Virus record (IMG/VR): IMGVR_UViG_3300001838_000149
Span: 1 to 35,324 of that record
Source: a virus
Direction: 5' to 3' (one strand)
DNA: 35,324 bases
Shown: piece by piece, positions 14,788 to 32,101 of the stretch
How positions within the stretch are numbered: the stretch's first letter is position 1
How the letters are laid out: each line of letters opens with the position of its first letter
Made by a program: the position numbers and the translations under genes
Notes under the pieces: generated by a model
What the model was told of the DNA's origin: nothing
The model's database searches: none
Seen by the model: only the letters and a program-made list of their open reading frames with translations

Positions 14788-14834
14788 CAAAAGTATATAG
14801 CTGTTATATGTCTATGAAATTGTTATATTTTACT
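14788..14834 (-). promoter_or_regulatory. Late promoter 4 (fibre-lysis unit)
   Basis: On the minus strand AGTAAAATATA (14834..14824) is followed after exactly 28 nt by TACTTTTG (14795..14788), a perfect TAnnTTTG. The gene ATG is 17 nt further. The same 11-mer and 28-nt spacing occur before three other late units. The -33 TTTG is poor (TTTC), as in an activator-dependent promoter. Confidence 0.7.
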
Positions 14835-14835
14835 T

Positions 14836-15783
14836 TTAGCTAAAAACCAATGAATAAGGCGATGTGAATATTCTGGCCGTCCCCATATCGTCAGAATTAT
14901 TCCATTCCCAGCCCGATTGGTTGTCATGCTCCCGTAGCTGTATGGTGCCGGACATGAGATTTGTTACCTCGTTCTTTGTCAGGTTCCAGTTTGCGCCGTT
15001 GTTCTTGATATACCGAACCCCATCTATGAATATATAGCTGCAGGACAGTATTCGGTTAACTTTATCCATAACCCAATCAGGAGCGCCGTACGGAGCGCCC
15101 ACAATAAGCTTAAATACCCGGTATGGAATGGAGTTCAGGTTCACAAGGTCGGAGTTCATATCACTGAAGCCGGTATCATCGGAGGCAAAATCATCTGGTA
15201 ACAGGATCATTTCAGTCCTGAAATTGAACAAGTAACCGGCCGTAATACCCTCGAACAGTATATCATAGTTGTTTATGTCATGGCTGTACTCCAATAGCAT
15301 GGTCTTTTTAAAGGTTCCATTCTTTACGAGCAGGCATTCCGATACCACAAATGTATTCTCAGTGTCGCCGGTATCGCCATACAGCTCCTCTATGACAATA
15401 TAATAGTACCCATCGGCCAGCTCCAGCGTTTCCGGGTTAAAATTGTACATAAAAGTGTTATATATGTCCCCGTAGTAGCTATCTACGTTTCCGGGTAGCA
15501 CAATAGCCGGTATCATGGCCGAAATTAGCACCGTTACTACATTCCCGTTATCATCGAATAGGGTAATGTCTATTTTAGGGGCCAGTGAGTCAATATATAG
15601 CAGTATATCATCTCCATAGCTCACTTTCTGTACATAGTTGCTATCCCCCTGGAAAAACTGCCTTGTTTTTTGCCAGAAAAAGCCTTTATCAAAGCCGAAA
15701 GTGTTGTATTTATCGGGTAAAATATCGTTAGCTTTTATCATGCGTAAAGCTCCGAGCGGCGGTATGCGTGTACTTTTATTCAT
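14836..15783 (-). CDS. Tail tip / baseplate protein
   Basis: A 315-residue beta-rich protein with many aromatic residues (FWQKTRQFFQGDSNYVQKV, GYYYIVIEELYGDTGDTENT). It follows the 764-residue tail gene and precedes the fibres, a place for a receptor-tip or baseplate protein. No enzyme motif is seen. It starts within a 46-bp space shared with the divergent lipoprotein gene. Identified by position and composition; I do not recognise a named family. Confidence 0.55.
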   Translation of the reverse strand: MNKSTRIPPLGALRMIKANDILPDKYNTFGFDKGFFWQKTRQFFQGDSNYVQKVSYGDDILLYIDSLAPKIDITLFDDNGNVVTVLISAMIPAIVLPGNVDSYYGDIYNTFMYNFNPETLELADGYYYIVIEELYGDTGDTENTFVVSECLLVKNGTFKKTMLLEYSHDINNYDILFEGITAGYLFNFRTEMILLPDDFASDDTGFSDMNSDLVNLNSIPYRVFKLIVGAPYGAPDWVMDKVNRILSCSYIFIDGVRYIKNNGANWNLTKNEVTNLMSGTIQLREHDNQSGWEWNNSDDMGTARIFTSPYSLVFS

Positions 15784-15829
15784 TTTTTATAATATTATTT
15801 GTTAATATTGTTGTTTAATTCTATTCATT

Positions 15830-16150
15830 ATGAAGTACTTTTTACTTGTTGCCTGTCTTTCCCTCATTTCGTGTACCAAGAGCTCCGGCCCGTCTGCTAA
15901 GTATGATTTTTCATGCTTTGTAGAGATTAACTACGCATACAGGTCTATAGATACCGCATATTATCATGCACATGGCGCTTATCATTATTCGACTATCAAC
16001 CGCCACGATACCATATACGGGTATGACAGCGCATCTATGCTCAGTTATATAGCCTCTCGCCGGCTGTTCCCGGCTGTTCTTGATCACATCATCCTCGACA
16101 CCGCCGTATACGTCGACAGTGGTACAGATTGCCATCGTTACATTCACTAA
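15830..16150 (+). CDS. Lipoprotein moron on the opposite strand
   Basis: A 106-residue protein with a lipoprotein signal: MKYFLLVACLSLISC, lipobox LISC, acylated Cys15. The mature part is small and His/Tyr-rich (YHAHGAYHYSTINRHD) with two more Cys (28, 101 region). It is the only plus-strand gene in 20 kb of late minus-strand genes, wedged between two tail genes, ending 5 bp from the convergent tail gene. This is the usual look of a 'moron'. Phage lipoproteins of this size often block superinfection at the cell surface. The exact function is inferred. Confidence 0.7.
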   Translation: MKYFLLVACLSLISCTKSSGPSAKYDFSCFVEINYAYRSIDTAYYHAHGAYHYSTINRHDTIYGYDSASMLSYIASRRLFPAVLDHIILDTAVYVDSGTDCHRYIH

Positions 16151-16155
16151 AAGAG

Positions 16156-18450
16156 CTACAGGTAGTCCGGTATCACCGTATCCGGGCTACACAATAATTT
16201 GAACGTGAACACATCGTTCACACCGTCCTTTATCCCCGCCTCGAGCACAAAGCCATCCAGTTCTATACCCTGGTATGTATGCCTGAACACACCATAGGGA
16301 TTGGTGGCCATCAGGTCGGGCAGGTCAAGCGGCACCTGCGCGTCGAACTCGAATACTAACGGCTTGAATAGTATATCCTCGCCTGTTCCGTCCGGTGCAA
16401 GGTCAACATCCGCATTCTCGGTAACGGTAGGGCCGGTATACATGCTGCTGACTACATCCGCGTTCTTGGTTGCTGAAGTAAACTCAAGGCCCGGGCTCAG
16501 CATATCGCCGTAGACAGACCGGAGCCATTTCATCAGCCTGCCTATGCACCGGGCAGGGGAGAATGGCATGTTATAGACCGTGGGCCATACAGATGCAGGA
16601 AGGCCGGCGGTTACCGTCTGCGCCTTTTCCACCTGGTATGGGTTGGGCGTAATGCCATCTATCTCCATCCGGTCGCCGTTCGACTGGATAATAAACGTAT
16701 CGTTATCGCTGCCGCTGTCCGTGGTCTGCTTATTGGCAAGGTTGGCCCGGGTATATTCTATGCCATAGCAGTCGGTTCGCAATGGTGCGGTATAATCGAT
16801 GTCTTTATTGAGACTCTTTACCGGCGTCTTATGCGTTACCTCCGAATTATACTCATAGCGGCCGTTCACCTCGTCATAGCTCTGGTCATGGTAGCCTGAC
16901 TTTATGGAGTTCGCCTTATAATCTGCGTATGCGTACATTTTCCAGTTTGCGATGCGGTCGCCGAGGTGGGCGATCAGCACATCCTTTTGGTAGAAATACC
17001 CTAAATCCTCAAGCCGCAATACCTCGTTACCATCATCGTCCTTTTCGATGCCTATTCCCGCCGCGCACCTGCTGAATGCATCCTTTGCGAAGTCCGCGAA
17101 GTTGATCTTTATAACCGGGTCGATGGTAGTACCGTCTGCGGACACATACAACTGCCGGAGCGCATCACCGGAAGTAAAGAAGGTATACAAATTGTTGAGG
17201 TTGTATACATCCGGGCCCGGGAAAGTATCGGTTGTCAGCAGATCACTCACGGGATCGACGGATGTAGAGCCGGTTATCTTGTAAAACAATTGCTTGAACA
17301 GGTTGTAGTGGCTCAGTACACGGCAAGGTGTATCCGGCTGCCGGAACTCGAAAGAAAGCCTGATGGCAGACGCTACACTGCCGAGTTTTATATCAAGGTC
17401 TGAGTGATTTACACCCGTCTCCGCCGCTGAAGTAGTGGCCCTGAATACCAGCACCAGGGCATCACCGGCGTTAAATGTGAGCGATGTAGGCGCTATGGTA
17501 GCCGTAGTGGTTGGGCTGCTACCGCCCGGCGCTATTGCTCCAGCGGGATCTGTCCACAGTGGAGTGTCAGAAACTAACGTCCCGAATCCGCCATTGTATA
17601 TTTTAGCGTGCAGAGATACTTCAATATTCTGATCACTGCCGCCCAGGTTCATTATATGCCCGAAATTGATATCATCAAACGTCAGGACTCCCGAAAATGG
17701 TTGTACCGACTTGGACATGATAGCGTTCTCGAATATGCCCGCAGGTACATTGATACCCATGAGCGGAGATGTGGGCGTAATGACCGAATATGCGCCCTCC
17801 TCGTTGATAAATACCACTCCCATCGTCATTTCCTGCTGAGTACCACCAACAGACCCGGCAGACACGGATATGAGCGCCGCACCGTCCTGTTGCGTCTGGT
17901 AGTTGTACTGACCAAGCAGGGTAACGCCGCCGGGATCAGAGCCGGGCGGGTTACCGCTTACCCATAACCACTGAGTATCGGTATCATCATCCGGCACCTC
18001 CAGCGGTATCTCGAAGTCCGTAGTATCGTAAGAGTTGAGCTTGGCAGACAGCCCGCCTTCCATCAGGGCCTCGCTGACATAGTTCTTGGTGTTGTTATGC
18101 TGCGAGAAGTTGACCGTACACAGGCACCGAGGCTCATAATCCTGCGTCGCATCATTCAACTTATACACCTCCAGCTCGCAAACCGCCTCAGTACCTCCCT
18201 GCCTATTAAAGAGATAGCGCAATATCTGCGCTGCATCATTGGCAAATCTCGCAGCTTCCGGGGCATAGTGCCGGAAAACACCGACATATACATTGTGCCT
18301 GCGGTATAGTATCTGTAATTTATTCCAGTCAACAACTCCTTTCTTGATATTAATAGGTGTTGGCGATGTGACTACTGCGCGGCTTGAGTCCACATAGTAG
18401 TAAGTGGAGCTGTCCTTCCTGAATCTGAATTGAAATACCGGCTTTCCCAT
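16156..18450 (-). CDS. Large tail tip / hub protein
   Basis: A 764-residue protein whose ATG shares one base with the tape-measure stop (TAATG at 18450). The N-terminal 150 residues begin FQFRFRKDSSTYYYVDSS with LQILYRRHNVYVGVFRHY. The middle is a long beta region with SGVLTFDDINFGHIMNLGG. The end has YTRANLANKQTTDSGSDND and VFRHTYQGIELDGFVLEAG. Being directly after the tape measure it should be a distal-tail or tail-hub protein that links the tube to the fibres. No lytic-enzyme motif is seen. Large hub proteins of this kind are usual in Bacteroidota siphophages. Confidence 0.65.
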   Translation of the reverse strand: MGKPVFQFRFRKDSSTYYYVDSSRAVVTSPTPINIKKGVVDWNKLQILYRRHNVYVGVFRHYAPEAARFANDAAQILRYLFNRQGGTEAVCELEVYKLNDATQDYEPRCLCTVNFSQHNNTKNYVSEALMEGGLSAKLNSYDTTDFEIPLEVPDDDTDTQWLWVSGNPPGSDPGGVTLLGQYNYQTQQDGAALISVSAGSVGGTQQEMTMGVVFINEEGAYSVITPTSPLMGINVPAGIFENAIMSKSVQPFSGVLTFDDINFGHIMNLGGSDQNIEVSLHAKIYNGGFGTLVSDTPLWTDPAGAIAPGGSSPTTTATIAPTSLTFNAGDALVLVFRATTSAAETGVNHSDLDIKLGSVASAIRLSFEFRQPDTPCRVLSHYNLFKQLFYKITGSTSVDPVSDLLTTDTFPGPDVYNLNNLYTFFTSGDALRQLYVSADGTTIDPVIKINFADFAKDAFSRCAAGIGIEKDDDGNEVLRLEDLGYFYQKDVLIAHLGDRIANWKMYAYADYKANSIKSGYHDQSYDEVNGRYEYNSEVTHKTPVKSLNKDIDYTAPLRTDCYGIEYTRANLANKQTTDSGSDNDTFIIQSNGDRMEIDGITPNPYQVEKAQTVTAGLPASVWPTVYNMPFSPARCIGRLMKWLRSVYGDMLSPGLEFTSATKNADVVSSMYTGPTVTENADVDLAPDGTGEDILFKPLVFEFDAQVPLDLPDLMATNPYGVFRHTYQGIELDGFVLEAGIKDGVNDVFTFKLLCSPDTVIPDYL

Positions 18451-21400
18451 TAGCTGAAATGATTATTTAAGTAGGTTGTCCAATTATTACCGCGCTTTAC
18501 CCTCTTAACGAGCTGTCCGTCGTCCCACGAGAAATGCACCTCCTGCTTTTTTATGATGGCCTGCTTCAGGTCACCCACCTCCGCTTTTATAGTCCCCTGA
18601 AGGGCCGAGAAATCATTATTAACGATATTCAGGCTCTTGAGCAGTGAGGGTGTCATTAATCCCATACTTCCGGCGATCATATCCTCCTCTGGTATTACCC
18701 TTGTGCCTCTTTTGAGGTCAGCAATATGCGCGCTGTCGGTGAAGTATGGGTCTTTACCGGGCTCAAGCACATACTCCGGCCTGTCACCGATCACCGCAAG
18801 CCCTCCCGGGTGCGTAGGATCGCCGTCTTTTATACCGATACCCTGGCCGTATACCGGTAGTGGCTGGGCAAGTATTGCCGCCACCTGCGCCGCGCCAATG
18901 GCCGCATCTATTCCGGCAAGCACCTGCCCATAGCCCGGGATAGCCAAAGCGGCTGTTATCGCAATGGCCGTGTTCTCAACAACCCTAAGAATAGATGCTA
19001 CACGGTCGGCAATGGCCTGCTCACGCTTGATGCGCTTCATCTCGTTCTGTATCTGCTTCTCCTGCTGGTGAGTCTGCGCATTCAGCGCCCTGATGGCCTC
19101 CTGTTTTTTCTTGTCAGACATCATCGAGCCGTTGATAGCGTCCTCTTCGGCCTGTCTGCGCTGTTCTATTCCGTCCAGTAGTTGCTGCTGGTAGTCGAGC
19201 TGCTTCTGGTAGAATGAGTCCACTATGGATTGCCCAACTTCAAGCCCTGTAGTAATGGCTTCGTTTATCTTTTGATGTATCGCCTTGGTTTTCTCCGCCT
19301 TCGCTTTATCTTTATCCTCGAAGTTCTTGAGGTCGGCGTCATACAGGTGCTTCTTGGCCGCGTTCAACTGCTCCAGCAATGCAGATACATTGACGCCCTG
19401 AGCAGATAAGGCGTTTATCTCTTCCGTGAGATAGTCTACAAGCTGCTGATACTTCTCTTTCTGGAATTTATCCTCGATCAGCTGCTTTTCCTTCGTGTAT
19501 TGCTTGTACTTTATAGTACCGGCAAGCAGTTTATCAGACAGCACCTTGAGCTGTTCGCCTTCCTGAATGTCCACGTTAGCGGTCAGGTCTTTTATGGCGT
19601 CAATTCGCTTCTTTACCTCGTTCTGCTGTAGCGCCACTATGGCCTGTGCGGTCTTCTCGATATGCTGCTGCTCCTTCAGGTCGTATTCTGCGGAGATATT
19701 ATTGTATTGCTGTTGTAATACCGCCTTTTTGGCCAGCAACTCCTTCTCCTGCTGCGTCCGTTTGTCTGCTGACTTCTTTTCGATCTTATCTATTTCTTTC
19801 AGGTCATTATCCACTATGTCCATACGGGCAGATAAACCCTCCGCCTCTGCCTGAAAAGATAACTCCGCATATTGCCGGTAAGCGGTCAGGCGCTCCTCCA
19901 GCGACTTCTTCTCATCGTCCGCGATAGCCTTCTGACCGGCAGCCTCTATTTCCAGTCGTTTGGCGTATTCATCATACAGCTCTTTGGTGAGCTCATCCTT
20001 ATTTTTTAGGGTGTAGTCCTTCTGCTCCTTACCTTTTTTACCATCTTTCTTATCCAATGCCAGCGCACCGGCTTTTACCGCCTCCTGGTTAACTATCTTC
20101 AGGAATTGATTACGCTCAATCTCTGCCTGTACGATCTGCTCCTGTATTTTCCCAAGCGCCTCCCGGTCTTGTGATATTTGGCTGACCAAACCGCTGTAAT
20201 ATGAAGGAACAAGCTGTTTAGCCCCGAACTTATCAGTAGATTTATTGTCAATTATCCCCTGATTTTTATTAATATCCTCCTGTAAATCGAGTTCCTTCTT
20301 TTTTAGGTCAAGTATTATTTTTTGAGCCTCCGCTACCTTATCAATCCCCGCCTCCATTGTAGCCTTTGCTAACAAAGCAGTATTCAAACGCTCCACCGCA
20401 TCCGCTGTCTGTCCCGTTAATATCGCCTCTTTACTTAGGCTGCCGAGGTAATCGGGATACTTTTCCTGTAATTGCTCAACAGCGCGCAGGCGTATGGTCA
20501 TAGAAACAGATGCATTTTTCGCTATTTCAAGTAAAGACTGCGCATGCGTTATCTCCTTAGCCGCATTTGATGATAGCGACTCGTCGATCTGCTTTATCGC
20601 ATCATTGTATTTTTTTGTAGCATCCACCGCCTGCTCGGTTGCATTCTTTGACATAGCCATACGGGCAGTTAATATCGTTACTGCCGCAACGGCTATGGAT
20701 AAAATACCGCTGAATGAAAACAGCTCTTTACCGAGTATCTTCCACACCGGCACCGTCTCCTGTCCGCTTTCTTTCAGTACCTTGTTGGCATCAGATATTT
20801 TCTTTATCGCATCATATAGCGGCCCTATGTTGTTGGATATGGCGAGTATTCCCGTTGCTGTACTGTATGCAAATGCCGGTGTATCGCGTAATATCTGAGA
20901 TAATGCAAGTGCGGCGCTGGCGTAATTACCAACGTTCCTGTTATGCTGTCCGACAGACTTTTCTATCTCCAGCAGCTTTATATTGAGCGCGGATGCCTTC
21001 TCTGTCATATCCGCAGCCTCTTTGCTGTTTATTCCAAATTCAGCACTCAGCCTCTTTGCTTCGTTTGCTGTTTCCCTGTACTCCTTTTTCAGTATCTCAT
21101 ATGCATTGGCGGCTTTTTCTGCCTGTGCGGCCTCTTTTGCCGCCTCCCTGGTTAACCTGTTCTTCTCGTCGCTCACATACTTTGCCGCCCTTGCATTTGC
21201 CTCATGGGCCTTTGCTTCCTTCTCCGTAATATCTGCCACTCCCTGAGCTACCTTTATATACTTTTCGGATGTGCCGTTATAGTTTTTAATAATAGCATCA
21301 GCAACAGAGTATGTATGTCCGAGTTTCTGAACGGAAGTAATCAGCCCGTTATTTGCCGATACGGCCTGCTTTGTGTTATCAGATACCTGCTTCAATGTGC

Positions 21401-21551
21401 TGGAATTGCCGAGTCCATCATAAGCCTGCTTTGCCTGCTGTGATAGCTTTACTATCTCCTCCGTTGTTGCCTTAGCATCCTCCCGCAGTTGCTTCAATTG
21501 GTCATAGGCCGCCTGCCCGACTATCTGATCAATCATTTCATTTTGTGCCAT
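18450..21551 (-). CDS. Tail tape measure protein
   Basis: A 1033-residue protein, the longest gene in the genome. The N-terminus is a coiled coil (QLREDAKATTEEIVKLSQQA). It has hydrophobic patches near 215-240 and 270-295 (GILSIAVAAVTILTARMAMS), a long charged helical region (about 480-860, many K/E/Q), and a hydrophobic Ala/Ile segment near 885-925 (AIAITAALAIPGYGQVLAGI). It ends with GGLAVIGDRPEYVLEPGKDP, seen in tape measures of this host group. It sets tail length and leaves with the DNA. By the usual 0.15 nm per residue the tail would be near 150 nm. Confidence 0.9.
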   Translation of the reverse strand: MAQNEMIDQIVGQAAYDQLKQLREDAKATTEEIVKLSQQAKQAYDGLGNSSTLKQVSDNTKQAVSANNGLITSVQKLGHTYSVADAIIKNYNGTSEKYIKVAQGVADITEKEAKAHEANARAAKYVSDEKNRLTREAAKEAAQAEKAANAYEILKKEYRETANEAKRLSAEFGINSKEAADMTEKASALNIKLLEIEKSVGQHNRNVGNYASAALALSQILRDTPAFAYSTATGILAISNNIGPLYDAIKKISDANKVLKESGQETVPVWKILGKELFSFSGILSIAVAAVTILTARMAMSKNATEQAVDATKKYNDAIKQIDESLSSNAAKEITHAQSLLEIAKNASVSMTIRLRAVEQLQEKYPDYLGSLSKEAILTGQTADAVERLNTALLAKATMEAGIDKVAEAQKIILDLKKKELDLQEDINKNQGIIDNKSTDKFGAKQLVPSYYSGLVSQISQDREALGKIQEQIVQAEIERNQFLKIVNQEAVKAGALALDKKDGKKGKEQKDYTLKNKDELTKELYDEYAKRLEIEAAGQKAIADDEKKSLEERLTAYRQYAELSFQAEAEGLSARMDIVDNDLKEIDKIEKKSADKRTQQEKELLAKKAVLQQQYNNISAEYDLKEQQHIEKTAQAIVALQQNEVKKRIDAIKDLTANVDIQEGEQLKVLSDKLLAGTIKYKQYTKEKQLIEDKFQKEKYQQLVDYLTEEINALSAQGVNVSALLEQLNAAKKHLYDADLKNFEDKDKAKAEKTKAIHQKINEAITTGLEVGQSIVDSFYQKQLDYQQQLLDGIEQRRQAEEDAINGSMMSDKKKQEAIRALNAQTHQQEKQIQNEMKRIKREQAIADRVASILRVVENTAIAITAALAIPGYGQVLAGIDAAIGAAQVAAILAQPLPVYGQGIGIKDGDPTHPGGLAVIGDRPEYVLEPGKDPYFTDSAHIADLKRGTRVIPEEDMIAGSMGLMTPSLLKSLNIVNNDFSALQGTIKAEVGDLKQAIIKKQEVHFSWDDGQLVKRVKRGNNWTTYLNNHFS

Positions 21552-22260
21552 GTCCTTTGTACTTTTTATTTACGTGATCATAATATTTTTTATACTCACC
21601 AACCCTGATGGCAAACTCATACGCGCTTAATTTATTGGCATCGAGGTTTATACTATGTCCTTTGTAGTCGCTGAGCTGTATAAGCAGCCGGTAGTAGTCG
21701 TCCTCCGACTGTTTCTGCCCCTCTGTCTCCGGCTGTTCCTTTTTATACGCAATACGGGCCATTTCAAGCCTCATATGCTCATTTTTAAGGTTTACCTCTA
21801 CTTTTTTCAGGTCTTTTTCTATGCTTTCAGGCGTAAATGCATGACCGTATTCCCATGTATCACGCAATTCAGCGACCAAAGACTCGTTATATTCCAGCCG
21901 TAGGGCCTCAATTATGGCCGTTACAGCAACTATTTTTGTGTTATGGCGCTCCAGTTTTGCCATGTCCTCGTTGCGTTTTTCAACATCTGAGGCGCCCGAA
22001 AGACGGTAAAACTCACTTAATAGACCTATCCAGCAGTCCATAAGCTGCTCCTCAGACGGTACACCCTGCCTGATAAGCACCTCATACTCCTGGTTGCATG
22101 CGCATTTTATAAAATCAATGAGCAGCAGGTCATGTAAAGAAGTACAGAGTATCAATAATGCGGAGTCTGTCGAGGCTTTCATCTCCGGGTTTCCTGTAGG
22201 CGGATATTCCGTTGACCGTTTCCACGATAACCATTTTTTCCAGTTTATTTTTTTCAGCAT
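21538..22260 (-). CDS. Tail assembly chaperone-like protein
   Basis: A 240-residue helical, charged protein. Residues about 27-100 (KASTDSALLILCTSLHDLLL, then EEQLMDCWIGLLSEFYRLSG) are a pattern I associate with genes preceding the tape measure in Bacteroidota phages. The start overlaps the small Cys gene by 131 bp, and its end overlaps the tape measure start by 14 bp. Met27 (22182) is an alternative start that reduces the overlap. By place it should hold the tape measure and tail tube during assembly. Confidence 0.55.
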   Translation of the reverse strand: MLKKINWKKWLSWKRSTEYPPTGNPEMKASTDSALLILCTSLHDLLLIDFIKCACNQEYEVLIRQGVPSEEQLMDCWIGLLSEFYRLSGASDVEKRNEDMAKLERHNTKIVAVTAIIEALRLEYNESLVAELRDTWEYGHAFTPESIEKDLKKVEVNLKNEHMRLEMARIAYKKEQPETEGQKQSEDDYYRLLIQLSDYKGHSINLDANKLSAYEFAIRVGEYKKYYDHVNKKYKGHGTK

Positions 22261-22342
22261 GTCGCTTCGCTTCTTCTTTTGCTTTTGTCAATCGAGCGTT
22301 ATATTGCTCCTTTTTCTTCTTTTCACATTCAGGGCATCCCAT
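22130..22342 (-). CDS. Small basic CxxC protein before the tape measure
   Basis: A 70-residue, strongly basic, helical protein with a CPEC motif at residues 3-6 (MGCPECEKKKKEQYN) and a charged helix (KAKEEAKRHAEKNKLEK). Its last third overlaps the next gene, which lies in the +1 (or -2) frame. The place matches the first of the two overlapping tail chaperone genes of siphophages, which in many phages are joined by a frameshift. No classic slippery sequence is seen. A simple overlap is therefore equally possible. Confidence 0.55.
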   Translation of the reverse strand: MGCPECEKKKKEQYNARLTKAKEEAKRHAEKNKLEKMVIVETVNGISAYRKPGDESLDRLRIIDTLYFFT

Positions 22343-22344
22343 AA

Positions 22345-22815
22345 CTATCTTCCGTTTATTTTTTCCCGCATTGCCGCTACCAATTCGGGCTTTACTATCT
22401 CCCTGTATGCTTTTTGCTTGCTGTCGGGACTCAGGCCCAGCTCAGTACCACCGTATTTTGCCGCAACAGAGCCGGAAAATGAGGCCTTACCTTCAAATCG
22501 CAGCTGCTCACCGGCCCTGCTTACCGTTATGCCGGCATGAAATACACCGGTAATGATAAGGTTTGGCGTATCAAAAGGTGTGTCAGGGAATAACTTTTGC
22601 TTCCACCTGGCATACCGAAGTGCGCTTTCCCGGCTTTTGAAATATGGGTCTTCTGAGTATTTAGGGCTCAAAGGCTTACCTTCCGCATTGATACCGGCCA
22701 TTAACTGCGCTATATTTAACTGCCGAACCTCATCTTTATGACGATCAAGACTATCACCGGCTATATCGGTGATATTTATTTTCAGTAACCGCCTTTCAAG
22801 TTCCGCAGCTGTCAT
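22345..22815 (-). CDS. Minor tail protein candidate
   Basis: A 156-residue alpha/beta protein (QLMAGINAEGKPLSPKYSED; RYARWKQKLFPDTPFDTPNL; ITGVFHAGITVSRAGEQL). It follows the terminator after the tail tube region and precedes the chaperone-like genes. The place corresponds to small tail-completion proteins of HK97-type phages, but I do not recognise the family. Confidence 0.5.
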   Translation of the reverse strand: MTAAELERRLLKINITDIAGDSLDRHKDEVRQLNIAQLMAGINAEGKPLSPKYSEDPYFKSRESALRYARWKQKLFPDTPFDTPNLIITGVFHAGITVSRAGEQLRFEGKASFSGSVAAKYGGTELGLSPDSKQKAYREIVKPELVAAMREKINGR

Positions 22816-22832
22816 ATTGCGTTTATTTTAAA

Positions 22833-22866
22833 AAAGGGTTAACCGTATCGCTACAGTTAACCCTTT
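22833..22866 (-). terminator. Strong intrinsic terminator inside the tail operon
   Basis: On the minus strand AAAGGGTTAAC and GTTAACCCTTT form an 11-bp perfect stem around a 12-nt loop (arms 22866..22856 and 22843..22833), followed by a further run of T residues (six T in all). Two smaller hairpins precede it: TCCGC/GCGGA at 22876-22889 and CTCA/TGAG at 22901-22911. It sits in a 101-bp gap between the 76- and 156-residue tail genes. It should reduce expression of downstream tail genes relative to head and tube. Confidence 0.75.
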
Positions 22867-22916
22867 CAAGTTTCCTCCGCTATTGCGGATTGTGCCGAGC
22901 CTCAGGCTGAGATATG

Positions 22917-23147: not shown

Positions 23148-23176
23148 TTTAGATCGTTTAAAAAAGTGATAAAATA

Positions 23177-23196
23177 GCAGGCCCCATAGAGCCTGC
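23177..23196 (-). terminator. Terminator-like hairpin after the tail tube gene
   Basis: GCAGGC (23177-23182) pairs with GCCTGC (23191-23196) around an 8-nt loop, and on the minus strand TATTTTATC then six T follow. It begins about 10 bp after the tail tube stop. A partial terminator here would leave much tube mRNA and less mRNA for minor tail genes, or protect the tube mRNA 3' end. Confidence 0.55.
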
Positions 23197-24204: not shown

Positions 24205-24222
24205 TTTTGTTGAATTAAAAAG

Positions 24223-24825
24223 TTAGTTAATATAACATTTTGGAATGTTTGTTGTTAATACGAGATTTTGTACTTCAATAGCATCTACCGTGTCCGCAAA
24301 GACATTGCCGGCAGTATCAGAAAGGCCTCCCTTACCGTAGAATGGATGGTCTATCTTGGTATGTTTTATAAAGCGCATTCCTTTGGAAACGAACTCGGCA
24401 GATGCTTCTATCTGATTAAGCAGCTCATAATAAATGGGCAGAAGGATAGGCTCAAAAACCTTTGTATATCGTTCCTCGGCTTTAAATGTGGGCTCTGTTA
24501 CATACGCAATAAGAACCTGCAACGTTACCTCGCTATAATACCCGCCGTTGTCGCCGTTTCGCTCCGGGAAATCCATAAGAAGGGCCACAAGAGGGTACTT
24601 TTTAGTGCGGTAGTCGGGCGCTGACTCCCATTCTTTCATAGTAGTGATAAGCTCCTTCAGGTGTCCGAACTGATAATTTATCTGCTCAATATTACTTACG
24701 GCCATATCGGGTATTACCTCCTGCGCCAGCGCAAGCTCATTTGCCTGTATAGTAGATAGAATATTGTCGCTCACAGCCGAAACTATGTCGCCAAATATCC
24801 TTACTATGGCTCTTGGATCGCTCAT
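24223..24825 (-). CDS. Head-tail connector / tail terminator-like protein
   Basis: A 200-residue alpha/beta protein (FGDIVSAVSDNILSTIQANE; YPLVALLMDFPERNGDNGGY; VTLQVLIAYVTEPTFKAEER). The strand-strand-helix pattern and place between the adaptor and tube resemble tail terminator or neck proteins. It overlaps the upstream gene by 4 bp. No named family can be assigned. Confidence 0.55.
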   Translation of the reverse strand: MSDPRAIVRIFGDIVSAVSDNILSTIQANELALAQEVIPDMAVSNIEQINYQFGHLKELITTMKEWESAPDYRTKKYPLVALLMDFPERNGDNGGYYSEVTLQVLIAYVTEPTFKAEERYTKVFEPILLPIYYELLNQIEASAEFVSKGMRFIKHTKIDHPFYGKGGLSDTAGNVFADTVDAIEVQNLVLTTNIPKCYIN

Positions 24826-25373
24826 AAATTGTATAGATATACTTTTTTAGTCAGTTCATTACACTCCACCTCATCATAGTTAAAGTCGTCATAAACAAGA
24901 TTGCCATCATCATCCTTCTTATTCAGCAGGAAGTCGTATAAAACACACGTTTGATCCACCATTTCATTCCATGCCCGGCGCATCTTTCCTGCACTGCTGG
25001 CATTATCCGCATTCTCGCCCTTTCCTTCCTTCTCGCCTGTACTTGTGGTGAAGGTGACATTATCACGCTGCATCCAGTAATAGACGTAGTTAGCTATCGG
25101 GCTTTGTTTTCCTGCGTTTTGAAATCCTGTCCATTGGCGTGTTATACCGTCGGCATCCTCGTATTCGGCCCCTGTTCTGAGGTCATACCATTTACCCGAT
25201 GTGTCCGTGATAGCTGCGATAAATAACTTGTAGAAGGCATAGCCCAGCGCTTTCTTAAGATATTCAGTCTCCCGCTTTGTGATGAACAATGCGATAGTTT
25301 GCTGAACAGCTACGGATTGCGTCTGTGCTATGTTTATTTCCCCTACGAGGTAATCTTTATCTATCAGTGACAT
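24822..25373 (-). CDS. Head-tail adaptor-like protein
   Basis: A 183-residue, mainly helical protein: QTQSVAVQQTIALFITKRET, LGYAFYKLFIAAITDTSGKW, then IANYVYYWMQRDNVTF. Helical proteins of about 100-180 residues following the capsid in tailed phages are usually the gp6/gp15-type adaptors that dock under the portal. I believe a DUF6712-type family in Bacteroidota phages looks like this. It overlaps the next gene by ATGA. Confidence 0.55.
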   Translation of the reverse strand: MSLIDKDYLVGEINIAQTQSVAVQQTIALFITKRETEYLKKALGYAFYKLFIAAITDTSGKWYDLRTGAEYEDADGITRQWTGFQNAGKQSPIANYVYYWMQRDNVTFTTSTGEKEGKGENADNASSAGKMRRAWNEMVDQTCVLYDFLLNKKDDDGNLVYDDFNYDEVECNELTKKVYLYNL

Positions 25374-25399
25374 TTGTAAATGCTATTATTTTATTACTA

Positions 25400-25588
25400 C
25401 TATTTGCCTTTTCCGGCAGGTTTATCGGGGCCTTGTGCATGCCCTGTCGCTATCAGGTTCTCAGCTGTCAGAGGATGTACCATGTATTTCTTACCCGGTA
25501 CAAGCTTCTGCTTTTTCTCGTCTGCATGCTTTATGGCTGTTATTTCAACTTTGTCGCGTGTGTTGATCACTGTTCCGGCCTGTGCCAT
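25400..25588 (-). CDS. Small head-region protein, 62 aa
   Basis: A 62-residue basic protein (MAQAGTVINTRDKVEITAIK; KKQKLVPGKKYMVHPLTAEN). It has a short beta core and a Lys/Gly-rich tail. Located 42 bp after the capsid gene. Possible decoration or head-completion protein, or a tiny regulatory factor. Not recognised. Confidence 0.5.
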   Translation of the reverse strand: MAQAGTVINTRDKVEITAIKHADEKKQKLVPGKKYMVHPLTAENLIATGHAQGPDKPAGKGK

Positions 25589-25630
25589 ATATTTCGTTTT
25601 TTTTGGTTAACGTTTGTTTTTAGTTCGCAA

Positions 25631-26920
25631 TTATGCTGACTCCAGGTCTGCCATGATGGTTGCCAGGTCGTCGTACACGAATGCCGATGTTTCCACGTCG
25701 CGCACAAAGTGTGCAAGGCGGGCCTCCATGATGAATGTCAGCTTGTTGTACCTAAAATCGTCGCCGCTATAGCCTATACGCATAGTTATGTCCATGTAAA
25801 AACGTACGTGGCTCTTTTTGAAGTCACCGATAAGGATGCTACCTGCATCTATTTGGTTTTTTGCGATGATCGGCAGGCCATCCACGTTTGTAGCATTGCT
25901 GTCCGCTGATGGAGGGATCACATATGCGCCCTGGTCTGTCTTGGTAGTGCGCAGCTTGAAGCGTGTAACCGGGTTAACAAATGCCGCATTCGGTTTGAAA
26001 TTCAGCGTCTCCAGCATGGTATTGATAGCCAGGATAGAGTCGTATTCGTTGGCGCGGAATACGGTATTTGACAGGGCCGGCAATGTATAGCCGCCTGCAT
26101 ATACTGTTATGCCTTTCAGGTTGTTGCCTGTTCCGTCACCGTTGAGTATCTGATCTTCTATCTGCAATTTCAGGCTGTCCATGCCTTCACCTTCAATCTC
26201 TGATTGCAGCAGCGGTATATCCTTCAGGCTTTCCTCCGATACATTGAAAGCGTGCGCTATTTTGCGCGCTGTTGCTGTTTCACCATGTACATCAAAGTCG
26301 GAGAGTGGTTTCAGGCCGCTTTCAGCTACTATCGCTGTGCCATTTTCGCGGTTTACTTTGTTGAACCACTGGATAGTTGGTGTGCTCATTGAGCCGTTAT
26401 CCACAAAATCGAGTATAAAAGGCATATTACGCGGAGCACCTACAATACCTGGTACTACTGTGGCAGGGTTGCCCGGCATGTTTGATACTGTATTTGCAGA
26501 AACATTGCCAGTGCTCATGGCAGCGGCAGCCTTAAAGCTGAACTGGAGCTCCTGCTTGTGGTTGCCCTTCAGGTTGGCAATCGCTTCTTTGTTTTCATTG
26601 AGGGCCTTTGCGAGTGCATGAGGGAATGACTGTACTTCGTATGCCTCGAAGCCGGCGTCTTTCAGCTTCTGTATCTCTGTGGCCATAGCCTTTACAGATG
26701 TTTCCATTTCGCCGAATGATTTTACCTGCTCGGCATTGAGCATGCCTGCCTTAACGCCATCAATGGCGGTAGTCAATTCTGATGCATCTGCTTTGTTTGT
26801 CGCCATCTTAACGAGTACGGCATCCAGGCCGGTAGCAAACTGCTTTAACTGAGCATCCATAGTATCCCATGTGCCCGCCTCTTTGTACTGCTGTACAAGA
26901 CTGAAATTTTTTGGTTCCAT
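25631..26920 (-). CDS. Major capsid protein, HK97 fold
   Basis: A 429-residue protein. Residues about 1-120 are a charged helical delta/scaffold domain (AVLVKMATNKADASELTTAI; LKDAGFEAYEVQSFPHALAK), to be cut by the protease. From about 125 the HK97-type shell begins: PATVVPGIVGAPRNMPFI, then MSTPTIQWFNKVNRENGTAI, later ILNGDGTGNNLKGITVYAGG, a GDF..V-type P loop (ILIGDFKKSHVRFYMDITMR) and an E-loop/A-domain end. It starts directly after the protease stop. A complete size for a phage with T=7 head. Confidence 0.9.
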   Translation of the reverse strand: MEPKNFSLVQQYKEAGTWDTMDAQLKQFATGLDAVLVKMATNKADASELTTAIDGVKAGMLNAEQVKSFGEMETSVKAMATEIQKLKDAGFEAYEVQSFPHALAKALNENKEAIANLKGNHKQELQFSFKAAAAMSTGNVSANTVSNMPGNPATVVPGIVGAPRNMPFILDFVDNGSMSTPTIQWFNKVNRENGTAIVAESGLKPLSDFDVHGETATARKIAHAFNVSEESLKDIPLLQSEIEGEGMDSLKLQIEDQILNGDGTGNNLKGITVYAGGYTLPALSNTVFRANEYDSILAINTMLETLNFKPNAAFVNPVTRFKLRTTKTDQGAYVIPPSADSNATNVDGLPIIAKNQIDAGSILIGDFKKSHVRFYMDITMRIGYSGDDFRYNKLTFIMEARLAHFVRDVETSAFVYDDLATIMADLESA

Positions 26921-27697
26921 TTAATTGTTTTTAACTGTTAGTAATAATTTTCCGTAATCAACTGACTTACTTTCTTGCGGGTCGCCTAATCCAAGTGGTT
27001 TGTCCGGGTTGTGCTCAGCGAGTGCTATATGTTTAGTTATCAATTGCCTTATTTGATATTCCATTTCTGCCGGCAGCTGCTTTAATACCTGCTCCGTATC
27101 GCGCAGTAGCTGGTTTTTATGGCTGAGCACCTGGCTATCTTTCATGCCCAGGTACTCCGTTTCCTCATTGCATCCGAATGTCACGACAGAAACCTCGAAT
27201 AGCTCTATCTCCTTACATTCGAGCACATACATCATTTTCCCCTTATTATCTGGATCGGGAACCTCTACCCATTGGCATTTGTCCCATACATAGTTATACC
27301 CGATAGAGAACTGATTAAGGGTGCCCGATTTAAGCTGCACAAGCGTATCGTCTCCGAGCGGTATCTGATCAATTGGCGACTCAACATACAGGCCCTTATT
27401 ATCCTCCTTAAGTACCAATGGCTTACCGAGCGGTTGCTTTACGTTATGCTGATAGAGAAATACTATCTTTCGGTTCGTCTTTGACTCCGGGCCGCGGGCA
27501 TCTATTGACCGGGCGCAGCATCCTTTACGCAGTACATCTCCGGCATCGTCTATGTTATCCCATATGGCCGCGTAAAACTTAACGACCCGGCTTTCCTCAT
27601 CTACCGAAATAGACGAAGCATCCACACTTTTGTAGTAGATAGGCCGTGAACTATCCCTTTTTGTTGCCGCTACCGGCTTTAGTGTATGAGTTGCCAT
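26921..27697 (-). CDS. Prohead protease (peptidase U35 type)
   Basis: A 258-residue maturation protease. The conserved patches are VKFYAAIWDNIDDAGDVLRK, then FLYQHNVKQPLGKPL (catalytic His in the QHN), then LKSGTLNQFSIGYNYVWD (catalytic Ser in FSIGY), and IELFEVSVVTFGCNEET. Those are the strands of the herpes-like S14/U35 prohead protease fold. It cleaves the capsid N-terminal domain and then itself. Ends one base before the capsid ATG, so the two are translationally coupled. A C-terminal 60 residues may be a scaffold tail. Confidence 0.88.
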   Translation of the reverse strand: MATHTLKPVAATKRDSSRPIYYKSVDASSISVDEESRVVKFYAAIWDNIDDAGDVLRKGCCARSIDARGPESKTNRKIVFLYQHNVKQPLGKPLVLKEDNKGLYVESPIDQIPLGDDTLVQLKSGTLNQFSIGYNYVWDKCQWVEVPDPDNKGKMMYVLECKEIELFEVSVVTFGCNEETEYLGMKDSQVLSHKNQLLRDTEQVLKQLPAEMEYQIRQLITKHIALAEHNPDKPLGLGDPQESKSVDYGKLLLTVKNN

Positions 27698-27818
27698 TGT
27701 TTTTGTTCCGTTTTATGTTTTTTGATGGTTTACCGGCTATAGTGTTATCCACCGGCCGCATACCCTTGTTTTCATACTTACTGCCATTAATTGCCTTGTT
27801 GCTGAGTTCCCGCATCAT
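27651..27818 (-). CDS. Possible nested basic peptide, 55 aa
   Basis: From the ATG at 27818, in a frame different from the portal, a 55-codon frame crosses the 89-bp portal-protease gap and ends in the protease gene at a TAG at 27651. The peptide is Lys/Asn/Gly-rich (GKPSKNIKRNKNNGNSYTK). It overlaps the portal by 32 bp and the protease by 47 bp. Low complexity and double overlap keep confidence low, but nothing else explains the gap. Confidence 0.28.
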   Translation of the reverse strand: MMRELSNKAINGSKYENKGMRPVDNTIAGKPSKNIKRNKNNGNSYTKAGSGNKKG

Positions 27819-29223
27819 TGTTTTGAACATTTTGATTGTTACCTGAACTGCCGCCTTTGAGCAACTTTGATATTGTCTCCACTATTGATAATTCCTCCGG
27901 GGTCATGTCGTAGAGTAGTTTGTCGTACATCTTATTGCCGGTTACCTTCTCCGCACCCATGTTTACGCGCCAGTCGTTTAGGGTTATTACACCACTGAGG
28001 AATTGCTTATGCCATGAGTCGGTATTAGCCTTATCCACCTCTGCCTTTTCCTTCTTATTCTCCTGTAATACCTCTATATGTTCGAATGTTACATCTATGT
28101 AAAGTCCGGCCTCATCTAACTTGAAGAAGTTAGTTATAGACTGCGCTATACTCAATGCTTCGGGTATCACTATATTGCGATAGAATGACACCTCGTCCTG
28201 CTTTGCGTTCTCATAAGTAGCGCCTTCTTTCCGTGGCATCAGTGAGCGCGGCACATTAAGAACGGCATATACAGCCGATGCTGCCGCCTCTGTCTCATCG
28301 AATGGCTGCAGCTCCTGTATGCTGGCGCCTATCTTGGTGTATCTCACCGGGGCCTTAACCACCCCTACTGCGGTCTTTGTCCCATCCAGTCCATAGGTGT
28401 CCGAATAGTGCTTATTGATTTCAGATACCTCATCAGGGGTTAGTGACGCGGTGCCGTCTGCATCGCTTTTATCGCTGGATATGAAGCCAAGAGCTCCGCC
28501 TTTAGTATATACCACATTACGGGCTTTCCATACCGCCTTAAGGTTATCATGCGCCGGTGATGCACCCTGAAGCGGAGATATGCCCCTTAGTTTCAGATCG
28601 GATGCGTTAAGGTTGGCATATTTGATGTGTAATACCTTGTTAGAGGGGATATTCACTCCATTAACCTCATACCCGTTTATCAGGTCGTCTATGGTTGTGG
28701 CTGATAACCACTTTATTACACTTTTTTGCTTTATCATTACCACATCAGCAAACAGGTTCCATATGGTGCTTATGTTCTTATAGTTGAACGCCAGCAGGTC
28801 TGGAGCATTGGCGTATAAGAAATTGTTGCCGGTAACGCATTTATAGGCCACCATTTCATATATCAGCTCTTGCCAGTTCTGCATGGGGTTGGGCCTGGAC
28901 ATAAGTGCATTTAGGTACTTATTGTCATAAACAACCTCATCATTTGATGATTTACGCACGATCCACCTGCCATTGCTTACCCTGAATGCCCGCTGATGCA
29001 CAGCCGAATACACCTCAGGGGTATTGTGGTACAGGCCGACAAGCATAGACTCAGTGTACTTAGACCAGCTAACGGAGTTCATCAGCTGCGACAGGAAAGT
29101 ATCGGTTAGTTTAAAAGTGTAGTTTCCGTAGGTAGTATCTATGTTAACATAGCTTTTGCGGCCGGAGAACGCCACCGCTGCCTTTATGAGTACCCTTGCT
29201 GCATATTGCCTTAATGACGCCAT
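27787..29223 (-). CDS. Portal protein, HK97 type
   Basis: A 478-residue portal. Characteristic stretches are VGLYHNTPEVYSAVHQRAFR with RVSNGRWIVRK, then MSRPNPMQNWQELIYEMVAY, then VTGNNFLYANAPDLLAFNY, IPSNKVLHIKYANLN, and LRGISPLQGASPAHDNL. The C-terminus is a long helix and a Gln/Asn-rich tail (NNQNVQNNDAGTQQQGN). It forms the dodecameric vertex through which DNA enters and leaves. It begins 7 nt after a late promoter -7 element, so it heads the head-tail transcript, which seems almost leaderless. Confidence 0.9.
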   Translation of the reverse strand: MASLRQYAARVLIKAAVAFSGRKSYVNIDTTYGNYTFKLTDTFLSQLMNSVSWSKYTESMLVGLYHNTPEVYSAVHQRAFRVSNGRWIVRKSSNDEVVYDNKYLNALMSRPNPMQNWQELIYEMVAYKCVTGNNFLYANAPDLLAFNYKNISTIWNLFADVVMIKQKSVIKWLSATTIDDLINGYEVNGVNIPSNKVLHIKYANLNASDLKLRGISPLQGASPAHDNLKAVWKARNVVYTKGGALGFISSDKSDADGTASLTPDEVSEINKHYSDTYGLDGTKTAVGVVKAPVRYTKIGASIQELQPFDETEAAASAVYAVLNVPRSLMPRKEGATYENAKQDEVSFYRNIVIPEALSIAQSITNFFKLDEAGLYIDVTFEHIEVLQENKKEKAEVDKANTDSWHKQFLSGVITLNDWRVNMGAEKVTGNKMYDKLLYDMTPEELSIVETISKLLKGGSSGNNQNVQNNDAGTQQQGN

Positions 29224-29393
29224 TGCAGAACAAAAATCAGCAAGACAATTATGATATAAAAAAAGTTATATTTTACTTTTCCGATAATCCGTTACAGGTG
29301 CGACATGCGGGTGTAATTATGAATATTACCCTCAAGTTGACGGTTATGGGTATGAAGTACTTATAGGTATGGATACATTATCTTTGGGGAAAA
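29224..29393. other. Portal-terminase intergenic region
   Basis: 170 bp between the large terminase stop and the portal start. It contains late promoter 3 (29231-29277) and otherwise only short frames below 20 codons on either strand. Repeated ATACC/GTATG tracts near 29330-29370 are visible but make no perfect hairpin. No gene seen. Confidence 0.6.
29231..29277 (-). promoter_or_regulatory. Late promoter 3 (portal and head-tail unit)
   Basis: AGTAAAATATA (29277..29267) and, after exactly 28 nt, GATTTTTG (29238..29231) on the minus strand, a one-base variant of TAnnTTTG. The portal ATG starts 7 nt downstream, so the transcript may be leaderless or nearly so. Same architecture as the other three late promoters. 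Confidence 0.65.
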
Positions 29394-30818
29394 CTACGCC
29401 GCATTACTAACCAACTGCCATAACCTCGTAAAATGATTGCGGAAATACTTAGCCATACCGGCGCAGCTATCGGGCGCATCATCATGGGCGCTCTTACCGC
29501 TATCCATACGCATATACGATGTGAGGTTCTCGAAGAACTTACGATACTGCGGTAATTGCCGCCAATCCTCCCGAAATACAAAATTATGCTTGATAAATGC
29601 GGACTGAGCCAATATGCGGGTGTGCTTATTCGTCGTGTTCTTTATGCTACGTATATCACAATAGTTACCCATACGCTCCAACGCCGCCTTTACAGCCTTG
29701 CGGAATAATATCCACGCCGAATTACTCTCTATCTCCGCAGCATCGCATTTATGCCGGTTTATAAGGTCAACACATCCGGGCTCATTCACATCCGTCCCCT
29801 CGTTATTGTATATAACATCCACTATATATATCTTGTCGCCAATAAGGTAACCAACAGGGGCAGACAGATCATCACCTCCCTCATCTGCCGGGTCTATGAA
29901 TGTGAATCTATACTCAGCCAGCTTTTCAACATCAACAGTCGCCGGGTTGTAATAATGGAGCTCTGACTTCGGGAATAACAGGCCCTTAAGGTCAATGGGC
30001 TGCTGCATATACTCAGCCATCCATATAGCCTCGTCTATATCGTTCATGGTCTCCAGGTATTCCTCCGTCGTCCTCACATCCTCACAAAATGAACGGCCCT
30101 GCTCATTGAGCGCGGCTATTGATATTTCCATATCTATCTTACCGTCGTCTATCGCCTTGCCTATAATATCACCTTTGCGCCACCGGGTGCCAATATACAG
30201 CTCAGGGCATCCAGACTCCTTACGGCTGTCCGCGGTGCCCTCCTTCCATTCTATAACCTTCTCATTATATCCCGGACTCAGTGCATGCGTTATGCCCGGA
30301 TAGAGGTCATCATTTATGGCAAGGTTGGCGCCATTACCTATGATGTTGGTACCTACACCACCGCCATAGTACGATCCATTACGCGCCGCAGTAACGCTCC
30401 AGTTCTCCAGCGCCTGGTTATCATCGGACAGTTTTATTTTCGGAAATACCCGTTTATATCGCGGGTCTTCTATCATATTACGCACATGCCGGCTTAGCTT
30501 CTTATATAGAGTTGCTGTACAGCTGTTGCGCATAATGCATAACTCAGGCAGCTTACCTATCCACCATGCACAGAAAAGGGAAGTTATATAGCTCTTTCCG
30601 GCCCTCGGTGGCATAGATACGGATATACGCCTGCTACGGCCATCAATATACTCGTCGTAAAGCCATTGGAACTTACCGGCCACATGCTTAAGGAATGGGC
30701 GCCTGGTGAAGAATGCATTATCATAATACAGGCAGAACTCCCAAAAGTTAAGGTTTGCCAGTCGCCGGTTAATAGACTCGTCCAGCTCCTCAACTGTCGG
30801 CATCTGGTGATTTGCCAT
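29394..30818 (-). CDS. terL: Terminase large subunit
   Basis: A 474-residue packaging motor. The ATPase domain has Walker A PPRAGKS (70-76) and Walker B NLAINDD (165-171, with Asp170/Asp171 at the catalytic place). The nuclease domain has FIDPADEGGDD (from 307, first Asp309), a central EIESNSAW and the C-terminal SAHDDAPDS acidic triplet. It pumps DNA into the prohead and cuts the concatemer. It overlaps the small subunit by 29 bp and is co-transcribed from late promoter 2. Confidence 0.93.
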   Translation of the reverse strand: MANHQMPTVEELDESINRRLANLNFWEFCLYYDNAFFTRRPFLKHVAGKFQWLYDEYIDGRSRRISVSMPPRAGKSYITSLFCAWWIGKLPELCIMRNSCTATLYKKLSRHVRNMIEDPRYKRVFPKIKLSDDNQALENWSVTAARNGSYYGGGVGTNIIGNGANLAINDDLYPGITHALSPGYNEKVIEWKEGTADSRKESGCPELYIGTRWRKGDIIGKAIDDGKIDMEISIAALNEQGRSFCEDVRTTEEYLETMNDIDEAIWMAEYMQQPIDLKGLLFPKSELHYYNPATVDVEKLAEYRFTFIDPADEGGDDLSAPVGYLIGDKIYIVDVIYNNEGTDVNEPGCVDLINRHKCDAAEIESNSAWILFRKAVKAALERMGNYCDIRSIKNTTNKHTRILAQSAFIKHNFVFREDWRQLPQYRKFFENLTSYMRMDSGKSAHDDAPDSCAGMAKYFRNHFTRLWQLVSNAA

Positions 30819-31281
30819 ATTTCAGCTTGTATAGTTCTTCAAATGACAGGTTCTCTATGGAGCTATTCATAGGCAGACCGTCGGTAGTATGATCTACATC
30901 ATGCTTATCACGCCACTGCTTAGGCCTCCTGTTTTTGAGCCAAAATATCAATGATGTGGCATTTGGTGGGTAATACTTAATAATGGGGGTTTCAACTATC
31001 TCGTTATCACAAACACGAATATCTGTATCCGGGTGCTCATATCCCATCGCTGATTTATACAGGCTTTCAACTACATGGCCATCAGCAATATCCTTCCCGG
31101 ATTTTATGGACTCGGAAAATGATATGTGTACTTTTTTCCATTCGTGTATAGTATCTTCGTTTACTTCGAAATACTTAGCCAACTCAGCATCTGTGTGACC
31201 TAACAGGCAGAGTTTATAAGCCTGCTGATCATATTCAGGTTTATACTTCGTCGGTCTGCCTACACGCTTATTTGCTTCCAT
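30790..31281 (-). CDS. terS: Terminase small subunit
   Basis: A 163-residue DNA-recognition subunit. The N-terminal HTH (RVGRPTKYKPEYDQQ, then LCLLGHTDAELAKYFEVNED with the recognition helix TIHEWKKVH) binds the packaging site. The middle (SIKSGKDIADGHVVESLYKS) forms the oligomer ring, and FWLKNRRPKQWRDKHDVDH is the C-terminal motif typical of phage small terminases. The GC-rich repeats 130 bp upstream are a possible target. It begins 4 nt after a late promoter -7 element. Confidence 0.88.
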   Translation of the reverse strand: MEANKRVGRPTKYKPEYDQQAYKLCLLGHTDAELAKYFEVNEDTIHEWKKVHISFSESIKSGKDIADGHVVESLYKSAMGYEHPDTDIRVCDNEIVETPIIKYYPPNATSLIFWLKNRRPKQWRDKHDVDHTTDGLPMNSSIENLSFEELYKLKYGKSPDADS

Positions 31282-31285
31282 GAAG

Positions 31286-31332
31286 TAAAGCTATTATTTA
31301 CACCCTCAATGAAAAAACAGATATATTTTACT
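31286..31332 (-). promoter_or_regulatory. Late promoter 2 (terminase unit)
   Basis: AGTAAAATATA (31332..31322), 28 nt, then TAGCTTTA (31293..31286) on the minus strand, matching seven of the eight-mer's pattern TAnnTTTG except the last base. The terS ATG is 4 nt beyond the -7, so the transcript may begin at or near the ATG. Same layout as the other late promoters. Confidence 0.65.
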
Positions 31333-31410
31333 ATTCTGTTTATTGGGCTGAAACCCGCTACTGTATTGGGTTTTGAGTGTTTTTGTCCCGGTTTGTGCTA
31401 ATGTATGTAT

Positions 31411-31447
31411 CGAAGCCGTCCGCTCTGCTCCCGCTTAACCCGCTTCG
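31411..31447. repeat. GC-rich repeats upstream of the terminase (possible cos/pac)
   Basis: In the 245-bp non-coding gap before terS, CCCGCTT occurs at 31430-31436 and 31439-31445 with 9-bp spacing, followed by a related GCGG-type unit (31417-31423 region). CGAAGC (31411-31416) and GCTTCG (31442-31447) pair around them. Iterated short repeats in a non-coding gap beside the small terminase are a usual form of a packaging recognition site. Direct proof is missing. The rest of the gap shows only late promoter 2 and an AAACCC/GGGTTT hairpin at 31348-31375. Confidence 0.4.
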
Positions 31448-31526
31448 CTATCAAGGATGGAGTATATTTTATTACAAAGTTCGGGAAAAATTTGAGTAAT
31501 CCAAATGCTGACTGAGAATGTTGATT

Positions 31527-32033
31527 TTATTGGTATTCCCACGGCTTTTTCTCTTTAAATAAACTACTAATATGGTGTAAGTCTTTATTGTCGGGTATTT
31601 TCTGTGGGTCAGCCTTGCCGGTTGGCTTATTTGTAAGGGGTTTCAGCCTATTTTTTTCTTCTGCATTCAGTCTCGGCTGGCGCAACCGTTTAGGACATTT
31701 ATCTGATTTCTGCTTCTTTCTTTGGGTTAATCGTGACAGGTCGAAGTATGCTACATTTTCATTACGTATCCTAATAACGGTATATCCAAGACTTTCGAGG
31801 TAAGAAGTACGCTCTTTATCGTATTGATGCTGGTATGTCTCATAGTGGCTTGCTCCATCTATTTCCACTATGATCTTGCCAATACAAAAATCAACGATAT
31901 AATTCCCTATAACCTTTTGACAGGTAAGCAATAGCCCAGCCAGTTCGAGGCGCTCCTTAAACTTAGCCTCATGATATGTAGGCTTTTTTCGCATGTCTTC
32001 AGCACGCTCTTTGAGTACTTCTATTCTTCGCAT
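31527..32033 (-). CDS. DUF559-type (Vsr-like) endonuclease
   Basis: A 168-residue protein from the ATG at 32033. The earlier TTG (32057) lies inside the promoter and is rejected. The N-terminal 110 residues are the DUF559 fold: KPTYHEAKFKERLELAGLLL (Glu22), YIVDFCIGKIIVEIDGASHY (Asp48, Glu57), LGYTVIRIRNENV. These are the PD-(D/E)XK acidic residues of the Vsr superfamily. A 60-residue basic tail (KKQKSDKCPKRLRQPRLN) probably binds DNA. It precedes the terminase, has its own late promoter, and may help packaging or process branched DNA. Confidence 0.75.
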   Translation of the reverse strand: MRRIEVLKERAEDMRKKPTYHEAKFKERLELAGLLLTCQKVIGNYIVDFCIGKIIVEIDGASHYETYQHQYDKERTSYLESLGYTVIRIRNENVAYFDLSRLTQRKKQKSDKCPKRLRQPRLNAEEKNRLKPLTNKPTGKADPQKIPDNKDLHHISSLFKEKKPWEYQ

Positions 32034-32054
32034 AACATCGGTCAGGGATCGGCA

Positions 32055-32101
32055 CAAATGTATTTATGAGAAATGAAGGATAGGATATTTTATATTTTAC
32101 T
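32055..32101 (-). promoter_or_regulatory. Late promoter 1 (DUF559 nuclease)
   Basis: AGTAAAATATA (32101..32091), exactly 28 nt, then TACATTTG (32062..32055), a perfect TAnnTTTG on the minus strand. The ATG at 32033 is 21 nt beyond. No TTG occurs in the -33 region, so the 11-mer probably replaces it as the activator-contact site. Confidence 0.7.

Follow-up and report, generated by a model that had tools for sequence, protein, structure and literature searches.

Does an invariant 11-mer, AGTAAAATATA, that recurs before the late transcription units of a viral genome mark a class of late promoters, and if so, what would recognize it? The DNA analysed here, which we call the window, comprises 35,324 nt, positions 1 to 35,324 of the IMG/VR virus record IMGVR_UViG_3300001838_000149. 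Its ends join in frame, MAKDTLWFPHDYNARADEKTDEAIEDYGTVAYGEYWVIAEMLHE running directly into ELEGKIELTDRFYRV inside one replication-protein-like gene (window 1-130 and 34668-35324), so that the record appears to represent a circularly permuted genome, complete or nearly so, of a probable temperate phage of about 35.3 kb. Besides the genes in Table 1, Pfam and PHROGs scans identified a DnaB helicase, both terminase subunits, an S78 prohead protease and an HK97-type capsid protein. The closest terminase relative lies on an 8.3-kb metagenomic contig (L072, 53% identity), and further relatives are phages or prophages at about 38-45% identity, several of them in Bacteroidales; on the strength of these relatives and of the promoter type, the host probably belongs to the Bacteroidota. 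Searches with the portal and capsid proteins in IMG/VR, and with the portal protein in 395 Bacteroidota genomes (a genome search run without a positive control), returned no closer relatives. Amid the tail genes but on the opposite strand lies a 106-aa lipoprotein-like ORF (window 15830-16150, plus strand), possibly a lysogeny gene (moron).

All four exact copies of the 11-mer lie on the minus strand, to the base where the initial annotation had placed them, and at 4/4 sites exactly 28 nt separate the word from an octamer resembling the Bacteroidota -7 box, TAnnTTTG (Table 1). That annotation had read the box at every site; it is intact (6/6) before the DUF559 gene and the last unit, whereas TAGCTTTA and GATTTTTG each match at 5/6 positions. 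Every site is intergenic, 40-75 nt before a minus-strand start codon, and, as had been claimed, each stands just 5' of a late unit: the DUF559 gene, the terminase, the portal/protease/capsid genes, and the last structural/lysis unit with its endolysin. The TTG start of the DUF559 ORF falls within the TTTG of the -7 box, so the downstream ATG is the likelier start. The four copies are identical at 11/11 bases, including the G, while neither the flanks nor the sequence between the elements is conserved. Copies with one mismatch occur at 22711 and 31463; the latter has GCGGGAGC at the -7 offset, and the former, tried at spacings of 26-30, gave no composite score near those of the four sites.

Table 1. 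Promoter elements and genes discussed in the text. Positions are those of the window unless a locus is named.
Feature	Position	Strand	Remarks
Upstream element, copy 1, AGTAAAATATA	32091..32101	-	exact
-7 box TACATTTG (6/6)	32055..32062	-	before DUF559 gene, likely ATG at 32033
Upstream element, copy 2, AGTAAAATATA	31322..31332	-	exact
-7 box TAGCTTTA (5/6)	31286..31293	-	4 nt before TerS ATG (31281); predicted leaderless
Upstream element, copy 3, AGTAAAATATA	29267..29277	-	exact
-7 box GATTTTTG (5/6)	29231..29238	-	before portal gene 27787-29223
Upstream element, copy 4, AGTAAAATATA	14824..14834	-	exact
-7 box TACTTTTG (6/6)	14788..14795	-	before 14153-14770 / tail-fibre-like / endolysin unit
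Probable early promoter, host type, TTG-N21-TATCTTTG	5441..5472	-	opposite S24/CI-like repressor gene 5931-6620
Second host-type promoter	9825-9856		18 nt before 97-aa DnaA_C-like gene 9514-9807
S24/CI-like repressor gene	5931-6620		Peptidase_S24 (Pfam)
Integrase	8192-9517		Pfam match below curated cut-off
DnaA_C-like HTH protein, 97 aa, pI 9.7	9514..9807	-	Bac_DnaA_C E=8e-7, just below curated cut-off
Endolysin	10350-10811		Pfam/PHROGs scans
Unit 14153-14770 / tail-fibre-like / endolysin		-	last structural/lysis unit
Portal gene	27787-29223	-	Phage_portal E=5e-33
Terminase small subunit (TerS)	ATG at 31281	-	phrog_309 E=2.9e-55
DUF1064 gene	32110-32499		
DnaA domain-IV-like protein, 158 aa, pI 9.5	32512..32988	-	near early-unit end; Bac_DnaA_C E=2e-16
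TTATATTTTAA examples	L074:7369, 9438, 12520, 16121	late strand	Bacteroides ihuae

The initial annotation judged this arrangement very unlikely by chance, a judgement that holds for the composite with its spacing and overstates the case for the repeated word, which by itself is only mildly surprising. An order-3 Markov model predicts 0.05 copies of this 11-mer per strand, and some 11-mer reached at least four copies in 25 of 300 model genomes (8%), so the number of copies does not settle the matter by itself, and we rejected it as stand-alone proof. When a composite site was defined as the 11-mer, 28 nt and TAnnTTTG with at least 16/17 matches, the window contained four on the minus strand and none on the plus strand, against none in 200 model genomes, the comparison that the annotation had proposed. 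With the 11-mers held fixed, the summed -7 score was 22/24 at offset 28; the next best of 80 offsets reached 13, and the null maximum over 3000 trials was 17. Nor do composites recur inside genes at a similar rate: the next best in the genome, which is intragenic, scores 14, and there are no intermediate sites. Only 1.8% of positions on the minus strand share the setting of the four, between genes and 40-75 nt 5' of a start codon on that strand. An unbiased scan of the fetched loci for words at the same offset upstream of -7 boxes returned the window's word as three of the five longest matches. Within this genome the composite is real and all-or-none.

Canonical sigma-ABfr promoters pair a -33 TTTG with a -7 TAnnTTTG; the composites share the -7 box, far above the null expectation, and differ in placing the 11-mer near -45 with no TTTG at -33. 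At none of the four did a scan for TTG-N18-21-TAnnTTTG find a TTG or TTTG 18-21 nt before the -7 box. The two intact intergenic matches to TTG-N20/21-TAnnTTTG both lie elsewhere, one at the probable early promoter and the other ahead of a small regulator-like gene; the early signals thus differ from the late ones. A dyad read by eye, CTAAAGTT...AACTTTAG, spans the early promoter (window 5441-5480) and is a probable repressor operator. Transcripts from the early promoter would extend from 5278 to position 1, cross the join and continue to DUF1064, with an early/late border consistent with the position of the first composite directly after that gene. The missing -33 TTTG had led the initial annotation to an activator: the absence stands, and the inference from it is weakened because the -33 element can barely be made out in F. 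johnsoniae (PMC6847099), although B. thetaiotaomicron shows it (PMC7366714). With transcript starts 4-5 nt after the -7 box (PMC6847099), the predicted leaders measure 17, 0, 3 and 13 nt for DUF559, terminase, portal and the last unit, respectively. Leaders shorter than 10 nt occur in about 3.7% of B. thetaiotaomicron mRNAs (PMC7366714) and leaderless mRNAs make up 5.5% in F. psychrophilum (PMC9723704); either the late mRNAs here are near-leaderless or their transcripts start slightly elsewhere.

The reading that we favor, and think reasonably probable, is that the four composites are late promoters at which host polymerase acts together with a phage activator near -45. That they are promoters is likely, and a phage activator is plausible; we infer promoter activity, the host sigma factor, the activator with its phage origin, and the timing from sequence. 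Host RNA polymerase carrying the phylum's primary sigma factor would read the TAnnTTTG-like -7 box, while a sequence-specific DNA-binding protein, most likely encoded by the phage and produced early, would bind the 11-mer, which spans about -50 to -40 if transcripts start 4-5 nt after the box. The bound protein would replace the anchoring role of the -33 contact, and the DUF559 nuclease, packaging, head and final structural/lysis units would be switched on together. Such a contact offsetting the absent -33 element would be the simplest model, with precedents in T4 MotA, Mu C and Ltr, and the sub-consensus -7 boxes at two of the four sites fit promoters that receive help. Counted against this reading are the leaders predicted at two sites, which at 0 and 3 nt are unusual for the phylum, the lack of conservation of the composite in relatives, and the fact that no protein has been linked to the 11-mer. 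If it is right, the window supplies four promoters that could go straight into reporters and offers quick access to a phage activator working with the phylum's unusual sigma factor; gut Bacteroidota would also gain an orthogonal expression switch.

An unlikely alternative that nonetheless merits serious weight is that these are strong host-type promoters in which the 11-mer serves as a fixed A/T-rich UP-like element for the host alpha subunits, or as a site for a host regulator, lateness arising from read-through or copy number. UP elements sit at -50 to -40, where the 11-mer lies, ten of its 11 positions are A or T, T-rich DNA follows at some sites, and a missing -33 element is common in F. 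johnsoniae (PMC6847099). UP elements, however, tolerate many A/T words, whereas here every base is the same four times over in flanks that differ, and no graded series of weaker sites accompanies them. The rigid spacing and all-or-none occurrence would suit an alternative specificity factor, of phage or host, for which the two elements together form a single, unusual bipartite promoter. We regard this as improbable: the downstream element is the box of the primary sigma factor, the 39 bp from the start of the word to the box is long for a single sigma, and no sigma-like protein emerged among those phage proteins that were compared with Pfam or PHROGs.

The short predicted leaders at two sites would be less puzzling if the repeats had another role near late starts, as repressor or nucleoid-protein sites or as recent duplications, and their likeness to a -7 box were incidental. 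A -7 match at the single offset of 28, above every null trial, argues against this, as does the unconserved sequence around and between the elements against recent duplication, and promoters would be implied even if a repressor bound at -45; we consider this alternative very improbable. Chance alignment of A/T-rich words could draw on the 8% of model genomes with some four-copy 11-mer, but it leaves the shared strand, the intergenic positions and the fixed spacing to a -7 box unexplained, and we give it almost no credence.

Several phage systems resemble the activator-dependent late promoters proposed here. In phage T4, the MotA box replaces the -35 element at a fixed 12+/-1 bp from the -10 (PMC2988021), and T4 middle promoters thus share with the composites a phage word that takes the place of the upstream sigma contact at a fixed distance from a host -10-type element (PMC2988021), here 28 nt at all four sites. 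The MotA box is, however, centred at -30 and varies between promoters, whereas the window's word is centred near -45 and invariant, and it precedes late genes of a small temperate phage rather than middle genes; the Pfam and PHROGs family scans gave no match to a MotA/AsiA-like protein. Phage Mu also has four late promoters, Plys, PI, PP and Pmom, with poor core elements (PMC4461284), and its activator C has its site upstream of -35 (PMC4461284). Unlike Mu, this phage carries an integrase in place of a transposase, along with a terminase and HK97-type head genes, and its host sigma factor is of another type; none of the proteins compared with Pfam and PHROGs matched a C/Mor-family activator. 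The Ltr regulators provide a precedent for an activator contact that compensates for a core element (PMC13123087), although in the RinA/Ltr systems of Gram-positive temperate phages the repeats cluster before one promoter, whereas here one copy stands at each of four, and no Ltr/RinA homologue was detected. The literature searched yielded no paper describing late-promoter recognition in Bacteroidota phages; the hankyphage report, as far as its accessible text goes, presents repressor control and no late promoter element (PMC12135933).

Which phage protein might bind the 11-mer? Two encoded proteins resemble DnaA domain IV (Table 1). The 158-aa protein keeps the DHTTV DnaA signature, which speaks for binding to DnaA boxes over the 11-mer, and the 11-mer contains no DnaA-box half, so we rejected this protein as a direct binder; DnaA-box-like sites occur in the window at chance level (40 found, 41 expected). 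The 97-aa protein has no DHTTV signature and possesses its own host-type promoter, and for both reasons it may be somewhat the stronger candidate where a new specificity is concerned. Single-sequence AlphaFold predictions for the two, made without an alignment, gave a pLDDT of 37 for one and one long helix for the other, neither of them informative. Between the 97-aa gene and the endolysin lies a phage-borne tRNA-Met (CAT; window 10192-10266, minus strand). By gene position, basic proteins of 63, 158 and 129 aa (pI 9.4-9.7) resemble the products of Ltr/RinA genes; one of them has the DnaA-like HTH, and no RinA/Ltr homology was seen among these candidates. We raise as a tentative and rather doubtful proposal that an undescribed phage-encoded activator, possibly a diverged DnaA domain-IV protein, acts on AGTAAAATATA to recruit the primary sigma factor from -45, yielding late mRNAs that are partly leaderless or near-leaderless; if true, no known Bacteroidota phage would have a comparable late-gene switch.

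The initial annotation spoke of a promoter class and suggested that related phages would carry the same motif before orthologous units. The class holds for this genome only, and wider generality is not supported. As scanned, the composite is absent from L072, and the scans done of the other terminase relatives found neither the composite nor such a shared word; with L072 included, the relatives compared cover 40-53% terminase identity. Across the 2.9 million viral contigs of IMG/VR, exact composites at spacing 28 number 49, mostly inside long open frames, against 55 at the control spacing of 25; with no excess over this chance rate, we rejected these matches as evidence of conservation. One match, in L044, is intergenic, but its -7 box is preceded by an ordinary TTTTG. 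Relaxing the pattern raised the number of single matches to 113, and none of the fetched stretches held two sites.

Prophages with terminases related to the window's carry a separate element. In Bacteroides ihuae, a Tannerellaceae genome, B. graminisolvens, Dysgonomonas hofstadii and Phocaeicola plebeius (L074-L078, in that order), as well as the faecal record L146, TTATATTTTAA occurs with GAAAA-like A-runs directly after it, typically 12-13 nt before the start codons of TerS, portal and other units, and has no upstream partner. Across the B. ihuae and B. graminisolvens genomes, the extended form of this pattern falls largely within the neighbourhood of the prophage, and the element is probably a single-element late promoter of these phages, suggesting several late-promoter designs among them. 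Reverse-complementing the window core TAAAATATA gives the TATATTTTA of the Bacteroidales prophages; because the latter occupies the -7 position, and in the opposite orientation, we rejected it as the same element. In another locus, L057, a different 13-mer, AATTAGATAAAAA, stands at 1265 and 3918 at equal distance before two TATATTTG boxes, a lead of two sites that is possibly a second example of the architecture.
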